DNA of 64,000 nucleotides, from the NCBI GenBank assembly GCA_944321455.1, contig CALULI010000007.1, positions 1-64,000 of the forward strand. Reading direction: 5' to 3'. The DNA is from an uncultured Eggerthellaceae bacterium (GTDB taxonomy: Bacteria > Actinomycetota > Coriobacteriia > Coriobacteriales > Eggerthellaceae). This document shows, one piece after another, positions 12,663 to 21,388 of the stretch (positions within the stretch are counted from its first letter, which is position 1; every line of letters begins with the position of its first letter). The notes beneath the pieces are model-generated. The model was not told where the DNA came from and made no database searches. It was given only the letters and a program-made list of their open reading frames with translations. Made by a program: the position numbers and the translations under genes.

Positions 12663-13607
12663 TTAATCTTGATGTTTCTTAATATAGGCCTTGTACACAT
12701 CAAGTTCCCACTGCTTACGGTTACTCTTGGCAACGGTGTCCAAAATAGCACCCGCTGTGAAGGCAAGCGCCGCACATCCAACCAAAGCAACAGCCAAAAT
12801 AACCGATGGAATGCGGGGTACCAAACCCGTCTGGAAATACTCAACAATAACAGGAACACCCGCAATAAGGCCCAAAATCAAGAACAAAACGGTGATCCAA
12901 CCAAAGAACGCAAAGGGCTTATAGTCCTTAAACAAGGATGTAATAGCCTTCAAAACTTTCGCACCATCACCAAAGGTAGAAAGCTTCGAGTAGCTTCCTT
13001 CGGGGCGGTCGCGATAATCAATAGGCACATCCTTAATACGCCAGCGCTTGTCTACCGCATGGATGGAAATTTCTGTTTCAATCTGGAAGCCCTCAGACAA
13101 CACGGGCATGGTCTTCACAAATACACGATTAAACGCGCGATAACCCGTCATAACATCATCAAAGCCATAGCCGTAGATGGTTTTGATAAGCCAACGAACA
13201 AGATCATTGCCAAAACCATGAAATGCGCGGTCATTTTCTTCACCATAGCTGCCATTAGAAAGACGATCACCTACCGTCATGTCAGCTTCATCATTCATCA
13301 GCGGTGCCAACAACTCAGGAGCTGCTTCTGCAGGATACGTATCGTCGCCGTCAACCATAATGTAATAGTCAGCTTCGATATCACGAAACATCTGGCGGAC
13401 AACGTTACCCTTGCCCTGACGTGGCTCAAAGCGAACAATCGCGCCATGTTCGCGGGCAATCTCAGACGTTTTGTCAGATGAATTGTTGTCGTAGACATAA
13501 ATGTCTGCATCAGGAAGAACACGCTTGAAGTCATCAACAACTTTAGCAATGGTAATTTCTTCGTTGTAGCAAGGAATTAAAACAGCTACTTTTTCTGACA
13601 TGGGCAT
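12663..13607 (-). CDS. GT2 family glycosyltransferase with C-terminal membrane anchor
   Basis: 314 residues. The GT-A fold begins VAVLIPCYNEEITIAKVV, with a metal-binding DGDD motif in YYIMVDGDDTYPAE (about residue 90) and a downstream GYRAFNR block, as in DPM1/GtrB-like polyprenyl-phosphate glycosyltransferases. Two hydrophobic segments near the C-terminus (about 235-255 and 265-290) anchor it, as in GtrB. It probably transfers a sugar from a nucleotide donor to undecaprenyl phosphate at the inner face of the membrane. The neighbouring glf suggests surface glycan assembly, but donor sugar cannot be read from sequence. Confidence 0.9.
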   Translation of the reverse strand: MPMSEKVAVLIPCYNEEITIAKVVDDFKRVLPDADIYVYDNNSSDKTSEIAREHGAIVRFEPRQGKGNVVRQMFRDIEADYYIMVDGDDTYPAEAAPELLAPLMNDEADMTVGDRLSNGSYGEENDRAFHGFGNDLVRWLIKTIYGYGFDDVMTGYRAFNRVFVKTMPVLSEGFQIETEISIHAVDKRWRIKDVPIDYRDRPEGSYSKLSTFGDGAKVLKAITSLFKDYKPFAFFGWITVLFLILGLIAGVPVIVEYFQTGLVPRIPSVILAVALVGCAALAFTAGAILDTVAKSNRKQWELDVYKAYIKKHQD

Positions 13608-16883: not shown

Positions 16884-17150
16884 GTTGTCTCCTATCGCAA
16901 TAAATGATTGAAATGCAGTTGGTAGTTAAGCGGCATGTCACAAAAGCTTGCGCTTGTTTGCTGCGTTGCTGCGCCCCGCTTTGTGTCATTGCCTTTTGCG
17001 ATTATAATTCCGCTTTATTTCAGTTCAGGAAACAATCACGCACACGGCACAAGAAGTTTTCTATAGCCAGTTATCAATCCCTTGTTTGGGGTTTTAATTG
17101 ACCGTGCGGGTCCGTACAATAGCAAAAGAAATCACCAGAAAGGGTTTTGT

Positions 17151-18077
17151 ATGCCAATTAGAATTCCTGATACCTTGCCTGCAACCGGCATTTTGGAAAA
17201 CGAAAATATCTTTGTTATGACCGAGCATCGCGCTATCCATCAGGATATCCGTCCGCTTCGTGTTCTCATTTTGAATCTGATGCCTACAAAAATTGAAACG
17301 GAGACGCAGATCCTTCGTAAGCTTTCCAATACTCCGTTACAAATTGAAATTGAACTTCTGCAAACAGCAAGCCATGTTGGCACCCATGTTCCTGCAGAAC
17401 ATTTGCAGTCGTTTTACGTAAGCTTGGATGACATCCGCAACAAACGCTATGACGGCATGATTATTACGGGCGCTCCCGTTGAAAAGATGGAATTTGAAGA
17501 CGTCGATTACTGGCCTGAGTTCTGCGAAATCATGGAATGGGCCAAAACAAACGTATTTTCTACCTTCTATATTTGCTGGGGTGCACAAGCAGGCATTTAC
17601 TATCACTATGGCGTGCCTAAGTACATGCTCGACAAAAAGCTCTCTGGTGTGTTTGAGCACCGTATCTTAAAGCCAACTTCACCTTTAGTACGTGGCCTTG
17701 ATGATGTTGTATATGCTCCTCATTCACGCAACACCGAAGTTCGCGCCGAAGATATTGTTGCTAAGCAAGATTTGGAATTGATTGCTGTTTCCGATGAAGC
17801 AGGCGTATTTATTGCAAAAAGCACCAACAGCCGCCACTTCTTTGTGTTTGGCCATCCCGAATATGACACGGATACCCTGGCTAAGGAATACGAGCGAGAC
17901 ATCAACAAAGGCCTTGATATAGAGGTACCCGCTCACTACTTCCCTGACGATGACCCGACAAAGAAGCCTATTTCAAATTGGCGCGCTGCAGCACAGCTCA
18001 TCTACACCAATTGGCTGAACTACTACGTCTATCAGGCAACGCCTTACGACATTGATACGATTAGCGAAAACCGCTAA
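17151..18077 (+). CDS. metA: homoserine O-acetyltransferase (MetA family)
   Basis: 308 residues from ATG 17151 ([13 protein letters not shown]) behind AGAAAGGG; upstream in-frame codons lack a ribosome site. Class I glutamine-amidotransferase fold with the catalytic Cys in [16 protein letters not shown], His in FGHPEYD and the following Glu. Residue 111 is Glu ([15 protein letters not shown]). In this family Glu at that position gives acetyl-CoA specificity and Gly gives succinyl-CoA, so this enzyme should make O-acetylhomoserine, in agreement with the divergent metY. Homoserine would come from hom at 20102-21388. Confidence 0.94.
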
Positions 18078-18207: not shown

Positions 18208-20055
18208 TTATATTTTTGGCATTTCGGAACTGTCCCTAAATACAAACAGCAGAAGCAACGGGACGCTTACTATTTCAGGTAAGAAGTAGCGAGGAATCAT
18301 ACCAGGCGAAACTACCGCAGAAGCAGTTAAAAGAAGAATTAAGACAGCCAAAGGAAGCATTGTCCATTTTTTCTGTTCGATAATCCTTATAAAGGAAAGA
18401 ACGACCAACCAGACATAAAAGGGAAGCGAAACACACAACGCCACCAGAGGTATATTTTGTAGGCATAGGAACAATCCTATGTTTTGTAAAAGAATAAGCA
18501 ACAAAGGAAATTTAGAATCAAAATGCGCGGGTTCGGAGCAAGAAGAGCCAAAAAAAGATGTCACCGTCCCGTCGTAAGAATCAGTTATACCATTGTAAGT
18601 ATTACTATAGGTATACGGATTCCATGCAGCTTGTGTATGTTGAATAAATGCATTTAAGTAACTTCCAGGATGCTGGATTCCAACTTGCACATATGCATTA
18701 GCTATTTCCGTAAGACTCATATTCGCCAATGTATAGCGAGATGTATCAGACAAAGTCGGCCAATAGTTTATAGGGGCCTGATAGTTGAGATCGTCCAACA
18801 TACTTATTTCGTCACTAGACAACGCCCCTGAAGAGTAAGTGTACGCCATTTGTTGAACAGGCACAGCCATTGCATCGATAGAATGATTTTTACTTGTCTG
18901 AACATTAAGAACATCAGCAACGGGATACAGCCAAACTAAGCTCGCCAGAAAAGACATAATCAGGCAGCTTGCAATTTGCTTACGATAACGCTTCATGCAA
19001 ATAATTGCTATCGGAATAAAAATAGCAAATGCATATAAGCCATTTGATCGCAGCACGCACACAAAAAAGCCGAGAAAAGAGAGAGCAACGAGAGAAGAAA
19101 TGGATGGTTTCTCACATTTTTTGGATAGCAACACTAAATTAGCAAGTTGCGTGACAAACAAAAGGGCTACCGCAGAAAACAAGACGTCCTTGGTTGAGCA
19201 ACTCGCAAACATTGGAATGATTGGATTGAGAATAGGGAACAACAAAGCCACTAGAAAAATAATTCTGTTTGTTGTGGCCTTCGAGACAGTGCTTATAACT
19301 TTAGTAAAAACAAAAGCGTAAAAAATCATTTGGAGTGCTGTAAAAACAGCCACTCCTGTATTGAAGTCAGAAAATGACGCAACACTACTTATAACGAATC
19401 CTAGAATCAAGGTATGTAAAACGGGATGATGGGAGTTTAGGTTCCCTGATGCATACTGATTCCATTCAGCGATATCAGAACCCCCCCCCACGTCATACAT
19501 AAAGAACCCGGGATACGCCGCTAGATACACAGGAATCCAACAAACGACAATAAGCGCAAAAACAGCTAATTGCTTTTTTACTGATAGCGGAGCCTTTTCG
19601 CGAACAAGAAACCTGCTTGAAAAAAGATGAATCTTATTACGACAATTGAAACAATTCCAAACAGGACTTATTAAAAAAGTTACAACGACCCCATTTATAA
19701 TAATCCATGCATAAAAACTGACGCTTTTAAAAGGAAGAATCTCATCTTCTAATGAATACGATCCTACTGATAAAGCAATAGACAGCATGAAAGCAAAACA
19801 AGCAGACGCAACCAACGATCGCCTGTCCTCAAATGTTGTCTTAAATGATTCCCTGCATCGTGAAGCAAAAAAAGTAAGCAATAAGAAAACAACAATAGGT
19901 AGAAAGCCGATAGAATAATGAATGCGGCACGATACGGGAATGAGATGTTCAACCGAAAACGCACCCACTAAACCAAACAACAGCGGAAAAGCTGCACTAT
20001 CCCAAAACTTCTTCAGTGATAGCGAAAACGTATTCCGAACTAAATTGTTTTCCAT
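18208..20055 (-). CDS. polytopic membrane protein, DUF6020-like, with internal G9 tract
   Basis: 615 residues, about a dozen hydrophobic segments and a large external loop at about 390-520. The block AYPGFFMYDVGGGSDIAEW followed by SHHPVLHTLILGF resembles the first external loop of GT-C-like or DUF6020 membrane proteins, in which the acidic residue and the HP pair are conserved, so a lipid-linked sugar transferase or surface-polymer role is possible. Codons for Gly-Gly-Gly here lie in a run of nine G (plus-strand C9 at 19481-19489). As read the gene is intact. It stands alone between metA and hom. Function is inferred only from architecture. Confidence 0.75.
   Translation of the reverse strand: MENNLVRNTFSLSLKKFWDSAAFPLLFGLVGAFSVEHLIPVSCRIHYSIGFLPIVVFLLLTFFASRCRESFKTTFEDRRSLVASACFAFMLSIALSVGSYSLEDEILPFKSVSFYAWIIINGVVVTFLISPVWNCFNCRNKIHLFSSRFLVREKAPLSVKKQLAVFALIVVCWIPVYLAAYPGFFMYDVGGGSDIAEWNQYASGNLNSHHPVLHTLILGFVISSVASFSDFNTGVAVFTALQMIFYAFVFTKVISTVSKATTNRIIFLVALLFPILNPIIPMFASCSTKDVLFSAVALLFVTQLANLVLLSKKCEKPSISSLVALSFLGFFVCVLRSNGLYAFAIFIPIAIICMKRYRKQIASCLIMSFLASLVWLYPVADVLNVQTSKNHSIDAMAVPVQQMAYTYSSGALSSDEISMLDDLNYQAPINYWPTLSDTSRYTLANMSLTEIANAYVQVGIQHPGSYLNAFIQHTQAAWNPYTYSNTYNGITDSYDGTVTSFFGSSCSEPAHFDSKFPLLLILLQNIGLFLCLQNIPLVALCVSLPFYVWLVVLSFIRIIEQKKWTMLPLAVLILLLTASAVVSPGMIPRYFLPEIVSVPLLLLFVFRDSSEMPKI
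19481..19489. repeat. C9/G9 homopolymer inside coding sequence
   Basis: Nine consecutive C on the plus strand encode three glycines of the membrane protein on the other strand. I noticed no other G/C run this long in the window. A change of one base would truncate the protein after about 190 codons. Confidence 0.95.
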
Positions 20056-20101: not shown

Positions 20102-21388
20102 TTAATCCACCACGCGAATAACGGATGGTTCGCCACCCATTACTACGCCTTCAAGTGCCAAAATTTCATCAATTGCTTGACGCATGTTGCGCTCTTCTGC
20201 GGTGTGTGTCAAGAACACCAGATCAACCGCGTTGCGCGCCTTCGTACCGCGCTGCGTTACCGACTGAACAGAAATCTGATACTTCGCAAAGATATTAGCC
20301 GTTGCCGCTAAAACACCACTGCGGTCTGCAACCACAAAACGCAGGTAATACTTATACTTGGCATCTTCCATGCTCAAGATAGGCAGCTCATCCATGCAGG
20401 TGCAGCCAACAATAGGCTTGATGCCCATCTGGATATGGCGGCATACCTCAAGCACGTCACCCATAACCGCGCTTGCAGCAGGACCCGATCCAGCGCCTTC
20501 GCCAAAGAACATGGTTTCCCCTACTGCATCGCCTACAGCAAAGATAGCATTGAACACACCGTTAACGGTTGCCAACTGATGTTCTAGCGGAATCATGGTT
20601 GGATGAACACGAACCGCAACGCCTTCATCGCTGCGATACGCAAGCGCAACCAGCTTAACCGCAAAGCCCATATCCTTTGCCATAGCAATATCAACAGGAT
20701 TCAAATTGCGAATACCTTCGGCATAAACATCGTCCATAGTGACACGAGAATTAAACGCAATTGAAGACAAGATGGCTATCTTTGCCGCCGCATCAAGACC
20801 GTCAACGTCAGCCGTTGGATCAGCTTCAGCAAAGCCCCTATCCTGAGCTTCGCGCAAGGCTTCGTCATAGCTTAAGCCTGCTTCTTCCATACGCGTAAGC
20901 ATATAGTTGGTGGTACCGTTAACAATGCCCATGATGCTTGAAATTTCATTGGCAATCAGGGAATGCTTCAAAGGACCAATAATAGGGATGCCGCCACCGA
21001 CGCTTGCTTCAAACGCAACTTCCAAATCTTTTTCAGCAGCTTTGGCAAAAATCTCTTCGCCTGCCGTTGCCATCAGTGCTTTATTGGCCGTAACCACATG
21101 CTTACCTGCACCCAGCGCTTCCAAGATAACGTTTTTGGCAACGCCCGTACCGCCAATAAGCTCAATAACTAAATCAATATCAGGATCGTTGATAATGTCT
21201 TGATAATCCTGGGTGAAAATATCATCTACTCCATGCTCAATAGCCTGTTCAGGATTGCGTGAACAAACGCGCGTCAGCTCAATGTCAATGCCATAGTGAC
21301 GCTTGAAGTCTTCTTTGTGGTTGCGCAAGATTTCGATGCAGCCACCGCCAACGGTTCCTGTTCCAACCAAACCTACTTTGACTGTCAT
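20102..21388 (-). CDS. hom: homoserine dehydrogenase
   Basis: 428 residues. N-terminal Rossmann fold VGLVGTGTVGGGCIEIL, catalytic-domain blocks GIVNGTTNYMLTRM and DPTADVDGLDAAAKIAIL, then a C-terminal ACT domain from about 345 (YYLRFVVADRSGVLAATANIF), the usual regulatory module that senses threonine. It reduces aspartate semialdehyde to homoserine in the cytosol, feeding MetA and threonine synthesis. The gene lies 77 bases downstream of lysA on the same strand, grouping two branches of the aspartate family. Confidence 0.96.
   Translation of the reverse strand: MTVKVGLVGTGTVGGGCIEILRNHKEDFKRHYGIDIELTRVCSRNPEQAIEHGVDDIFTQDYQDIINDPDIDLVIELIGGTGVAKNVILEALGAGKHVVTANKALMATAGEEIFAKAAEKDLEVAFEASVGGGIPIIGPLKHSLIANEISSIMGIVNGTTNYMLTRMEEAGLSYDEALREAQDRGFAEADPTADVDGLDAAAKIAILSSIAFNSRVTMDDVYAEGIRNLNPVDIAMAKDMGFAVKLVALAYRSDEGVAVRVHPTMIPLEHQLATVNGVFNAIFAVGDAVGETMFFGEGAGSGPAASAVMGDVLEVCRHIQMGIKPIVGCTCMDELPILSMEDAKYKYYLRFVVADRSGVLAATANIFAKYQISVQSVTQRGTKARNAVDLVFLTHTAEERNMRQAIDEILALEGVVMGGEPSVIRVVD

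Follow-up and report, generated by a model that had tools for sequence, protein, structure and literature searches.

Operons of the gtr type, which modify the O antigen, are often horizontally acquired and phase-variable, and in Salmonella their switching proceeds through DNA methylation. The phasomes of Campylobacter, Neisseria and Helicobacter hold large sets of in-frame G/C runs in surface-glycan enzyme genes, where the gain or loss of one base truncates the product. Among Actinomycetota, one study describes many G/C tracts of at least 8 bases per Gardnerella genome, mostly upstream of open reading frames (ORFs) and tied to surface proteins (PMC11287997). There, ten colonies of one strain were split nine to one between a tract of nine and a tract of ten bases, with a 9/10 mixture confirmed by Sanger sequencing, and in a second strain there were nine bases in seven colonies and ten in two (PMC11287997). 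Eggerthella lenta, a member of the Coriobacteriia, switches its capsule through large (megabase) inversions rather than a slipping tract (PMC13174815). A general survey finds A and T tracts, not G tracts, over-represented in genes (PMC2831843).

Here we describe a tract of nine G (G9) in a presumed surface-glycan enzyme gene of another Coriobacteriia genome. The gene lies in a window of 64 kb, by which we mean the whole stretch of DNA that was analysed. As in the three phasomes, the run is in frame and a change of one base truncates the product; unlike them, the locus belongs to another phylum, its genome has two such runs rather than a large set, and it is known from sequence alone. It shares a phylum and a G/C tract of at least 8 bases with Gardnerella, but is a single coding tract (compare PMC11287997). 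Its class and a switchable surface polysaccharide are shared with E. lenta, although switching is a proposal here and would involve a slipping tract rather than inversions (compare PMC13174815). The kind of mechanism is known, and the gene family is possibly new for it. One open-licence library returned no paper joining Coriobacteriia, phase variation and glycosyltransferase, and none joining coriobacteri- and slipped-strand.

The G9 is the only G/C run of at least 7 bases in the 64 kb window. Positions 19481-19489 of the plus strand read CCCCCCCCC, nine C, which places the G9 in the coding (minus) strand. It occupies nucleotides 567-575 of the gene at 18208-20055 (minus strand), 31% into the gene, where codons 189-192 (GTG GGG GGG GGT) specify V189, G190, G191 and G192. 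The sequence-only reading had described a nine-base run coding for Gly-Gly-Gly in a 615-residue polytopic protein, and this is correct, the glycines being G190-G192. It had further held that the present length keeps the gene on and that gain or loss of a single base ends it prematurely. We find the frame open along the entire gene at nine bases; by translation only, the first stop falls at codon 194 when a base is added and at codon 206 when one is removed, so the truncation logic of that claim holds. Steps of three bases preserve the frame. Slipped-strand contingency loci are marked by an in-frame tract of roughly 8 or more identical bases, which the G9 is, and by a change of expression with tract length, which is predicted here, by translation, from the early stops.

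The gene encodes a DUF6020 protein with features of a GT-C glycosyltransferase. The 615-aa product (ATG start) matches the Pfam model DUF6020 (PF19484) over residues 205-611 with a score of 70.5 bits (cut-off 28.3) and has no match among NCBIfam models; this is the one DUF6020 gene found in the genome. GT-C glycosyltransferases are expected to carry a Pro-Gly-x4-Asp motif in a loop following a membrane helix, and we take the DUF6020 family to be a member of the GT-C clan. The protein is polytopic, with 13 predicted hydrophobic segments, and has such an acidic motif in a post-helix loop. The motif (PG-x4-D) is invariant in all 21 aligned DUF6020 members, and the stretch P-G-F-F-M-Y-D that contains it (codons 182-188; 19492-19512, minus strand) is the presumed start of the catalytic loop. 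The residues invariant in 21 of 21 members are P182, G183, D188, K289, D290, Q401, Y431, D437, P584, R589 and Y590. The loop had earlier been called the first external loop; this stands for the presumed GT-C core only, since within the protein as a whole the loop comes after hydrophobic segment 5 of 13. The gene product probably takes part in adding sugars to the cell surface. A weak Wzy_C match occurs in 5 of the 21 aligned members. Structure prediction gave a pLDDT of 41.6, too low for use. A profile search against PDB sequences returned only GPCR-like chains, aligned at membrane helices, and no GT-C enzyme; we took these matches as hydrophobic noise, a helix-like similarity only. A full-text search of one open-licence library found no paper on DUF6020.

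The protein does not dictate the tract. Residues 190-192 begin two residues past D188 and fall in alignment columns without conservation, and no G run occurs there in any homologue aligned across the site. Thus, the run is not imposed by the protein sequence. In the nearest homologue (L004, 33% across the matched part) the loop reads YDAGVDY, one residue fewer than the YDVGGGSD of the window protein, and is free of a run, as the comparison of homologous loops proposed in the sequence-only reading had called for. That reading had also named the same run fixed in many species as evidence against a switch, and no homologue aligned over this site has it.

The DUF6020 gene looks like a lone, A+T-rich, horizontally acquired insert between metA and hom. 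On one side lies a conserved metA-like gene (17082-18077, plus strand) and on the other a conserved homoserine dehydrogenase (hom)-like gene (20102-21388, minus strand), both named by eye and synteny. Among 232 ORFs longer than 900 bp, whose median GC content is 49.1%, the gene ranks sixth lowest at 39.5%. Three genus-mates have the metA-like and hom genes next to each other, with no DUF6020 match in between; the gap measures about 0.14 kb in G001, 1.3 kb in G002 and 0.2 kb in G003. No DUF6020 match was found anywhere in these three genomes, which are 63-81% complete. A contig scan using hom recovered the genus-mates, and the 80 loci it gave contained no DUF6020 profile match; a scan of genome contigs using the window protein matched 17 stretches, none of which is a relative. 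Low GC content together with metA-hom adjacency lacking DUF6020 in genus-mates gives the locus the look of a single-gene insertion.

A glycan role for the DUF6020 gene is suggested by its neighbours in other genomes. About 4.6 kb away in the window is a GT2 glycosyltransferase gene (12663-13607, minus strand; PF00535) with the look of a polyprenyl-phosphate-sugar synthase. Five other genomes (G130, G114, G103, G013 and G115) have a match to this GT2 above 500 bits next to a DUF6020 gene, and 11 of the 109 loci searched hold some match to it. A LytR-CpsA-Psr protein and a UDP-galactopyranose mutase are also encoded in the window. The earlier label of a surface-glycan-type protein is thus upheld indirectly, through the DUF6020 match, the invariant motif and the GT2 homologues. 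By presumed logic, the arrangement may be likened to gtr operons, in which a GT2 loads a lipid carrier for a polytopic transferase; unlike in those operons, the GT2 here lies at a distance.

We tentatively propose that the G9 is a phase-variation tract, a random on/off switch of a surface glycosyltransferase gene, and consider this quite possible. Replication slippage would add or remove one G at raised frequency. With nine G the gene would be open (ON); with eight or ten the protein would be cut just past the first catalytic-loop motif (OFF). Cells might in this way randomly switch their surface sugar decoration, for example against phages or antibodies. The tract, its frame consequence, the foreign look of the gene, the absence of the insert in genus-mates and the DUF6020 match are directly established; glycosyltransferase function, slippage in vivo and selection for switching are what we infer. 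In favour of phase variation are the scarcity of G/C runs of nine (two in 1.55 Mb), a tract that the protein does not require and that host codon usage seldom yields, truncation by either one-base step, the single-gene insertion, the run-bearing DUF6020 genes of relatives and the Gardnerella precedent. Counting against it, the run sits 31% into the gene, and nine bases is rather short for a switching tract. The interpretation is plausible and slightly strengthened by relatives. If true, it would mean that a gut or mucosal lineage of Coriobacteriia varies its surface by simple-repeat slippage, with a bearing on phage resistance and immune recognition, and it would provide a first functional hint for DUF6020.

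It is also possible, on a somewhat more cautious reckoning, that the run is unselected: the GGG-rich codon usage of a recently acquired gene and a Gly-rich, poorly constrained loop would have reached nine by chance, leaving a tract that slips somewhat above average and has no selected role. Codon usage within the gene agrees with this, as GGG encodes 7 of its 22 glycines against 7.3% in the host sample. Synonymous resampling with host codon usage gave a G run of at least nine at the site in 34 of 20000 draws (0.17%, P 0.0017). When codons were drawn from the usage of the gene itself, leaving aside those of the tract, the site reached nine in 2.7% of draws, and a G/C run of nine arose anywhere in the gene in 3.0%, both in line with chance growth. 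Across 396 sampled ORFs (453 kb), a host codon model expects 0.19 runs of at least nine, and one was seen; an expectation of this size also leaves room for an unselected run. The same model expects 30 runs of six in these ORFs, and only five were seen, six-fold fewer than predicted. Because it over-predicts runs of six, the true expectation for runs of at least nine is lower than 0.19. Long runs seem purged, yet the G9 persists, and this argues against an unselected origin. Genome-wide (1,546,181 bases, 9 contigs) there are 25 G/C runs of at least six: 21 have six bases, two have nine, and lengths of seven and eight occur once each. The G9 is unusual, not extraordinary, and the evidence on chance is mixed. 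The second G9 (G000:C3:107233-107241; L001:1501-1509) lies between genes, 65 bp ahead of an ORF resembling a LysR-type regulator, and is a candidate promoter-length tract.

Runs are also present in further DUF6020 genes from this taxonomic family, which also speaks against an unselected run and mildly favours phase variation. Among 138 genomes of the family, 59 have a DUF6020 match, and 58 of them supplied 93 distinct gene spans (176,861 nt); a few partial matches (e.g., G079:C15, G080:C244, G087:C183 and G097:C44) were kept outside the counts. A G/C run of at least 8 occurs in 7 of the 93 spans, whereas the density of such runs in the respective genomes predicts 1.65 (Poisson P 0.0016; 0.007 with the window gene dropped). 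Restricting the count to the five tracts that are clearly coding raises P to 0.027, and for the four left without the window gene it is 0.086. In the six other genes the run lies elsewhere than at the window site. The window gene and L055 (G10) are open through the tract. In L269 (C9), L275 (G8) and L277 (C8), profile matches flank the tract in different frames, and the tracts of L275 and L277 fall in about the same loop, near profile position 400. In L045 (C9) and L266 (G9) the tract follows the beginning of a long open frame by 21-24 nt, and since their first start codon comes after it, the tract is perhaps upstream rather than coding.

Two sets of control sequences were compared. MMPL-type membrane genes of similar length were taken from all 138 genomes, giving 67 distinct genes in 60 of them (147,714 nt; a few rows, such as G148:C420 and G086:C65, lie outside the counts). 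Runs of at least 8 occurred in 0 of 67 against 1.89 expected, which speaks for phase variation; a zero by itself has a probability of 0.15. Fisher tests of DUF6020 against MMPL genes gave 0.020 (7/93), 0.035 (6/92), 0.063 (5/93) and 0.109 (4/92). Flanks of the DUF6020 loci, which may hold other glycan genes, contain three runs of at least 8 in 160,943 nt, against seven in the 176,861 nt of gene sequence; this difference is not significant (P 0.21), a point against phase variation and for an unselected run. Among 20 loci with G/C runs of at least 10 in G008, G060, G062 and G063, many runs are situated outside large ORFs or in the gaps separating them, and few loci look glycan-related, judged by eye. 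Thus, in this family, a long G run is no specific mark of glycan genes.

The excess of runs weakly fits recurrent contingency loci. DUF6020 glycosyltransferase genes might then form a recurrent contingency family in this family of Coriobacteriia, as solitary genes, spread by horizontal transfer, in which G/C tracts arise time and again in tolerant loops and N-terminal segments and so provide a random, reversible surface sugar switch. We regard this broader idea as rather unlikely; if true, it would be a slippage counterpart to the capsule inversions of E. lenta.

Gene decay or assembly error would explain the tract lengths and frame changes as draft-assembly indels, or as pseudogenes of dispensable glycan genes. 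Most of the relatives are drafts or MAGs, and a shift of frame at a homopolymer may stem from faulty assembly. Further DUF6020 matches have internal stops with no tract shown, and L277 has a second break, where the frame shifts once more some 100 nt ahead of its tract. The window gene, however, is open over its full length and L055 is open through its G10, and we consider this explanation improbable. Least probable of all is transcriptional slippage, for which runs of about nine are long enough and by which RNA polymerase would slip on the G9 to yield full-length and truncated products from unchanged DNA: both shifted frames do end within 14 codons past the tract, but there is no sign of a conserved overlapping frame, and homologues lack the run at the site.

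Several further observations were made in these genomes. The end of a G013 contig (G013:C48; L200:12468-13058) is packed with poly-G, has the look of a sequencing artefact and inflates the run counts of G013. Around the MMPL match at G110:C7:62969-63988 the open frame spans 12423 aa, probably through masked N. A DUF6020 match in a 1.1 Mb genome (G100:C23:8807-10003) contains five in-frame TGA codons, reflecting either decay or a changed meaning of TGA. The genus-mate G003 has G/C runs of nine at L211, L214 and L217 (each at 1501-1509), which by eye are found right where a GT2-looking frame begins and close to the beginnings of long surface-protein-looking frames. In G008, near the DUF6020 gene L261, a GT2-looking frame shifts at a G10 (L288:1501-1510), again as judged by eye.
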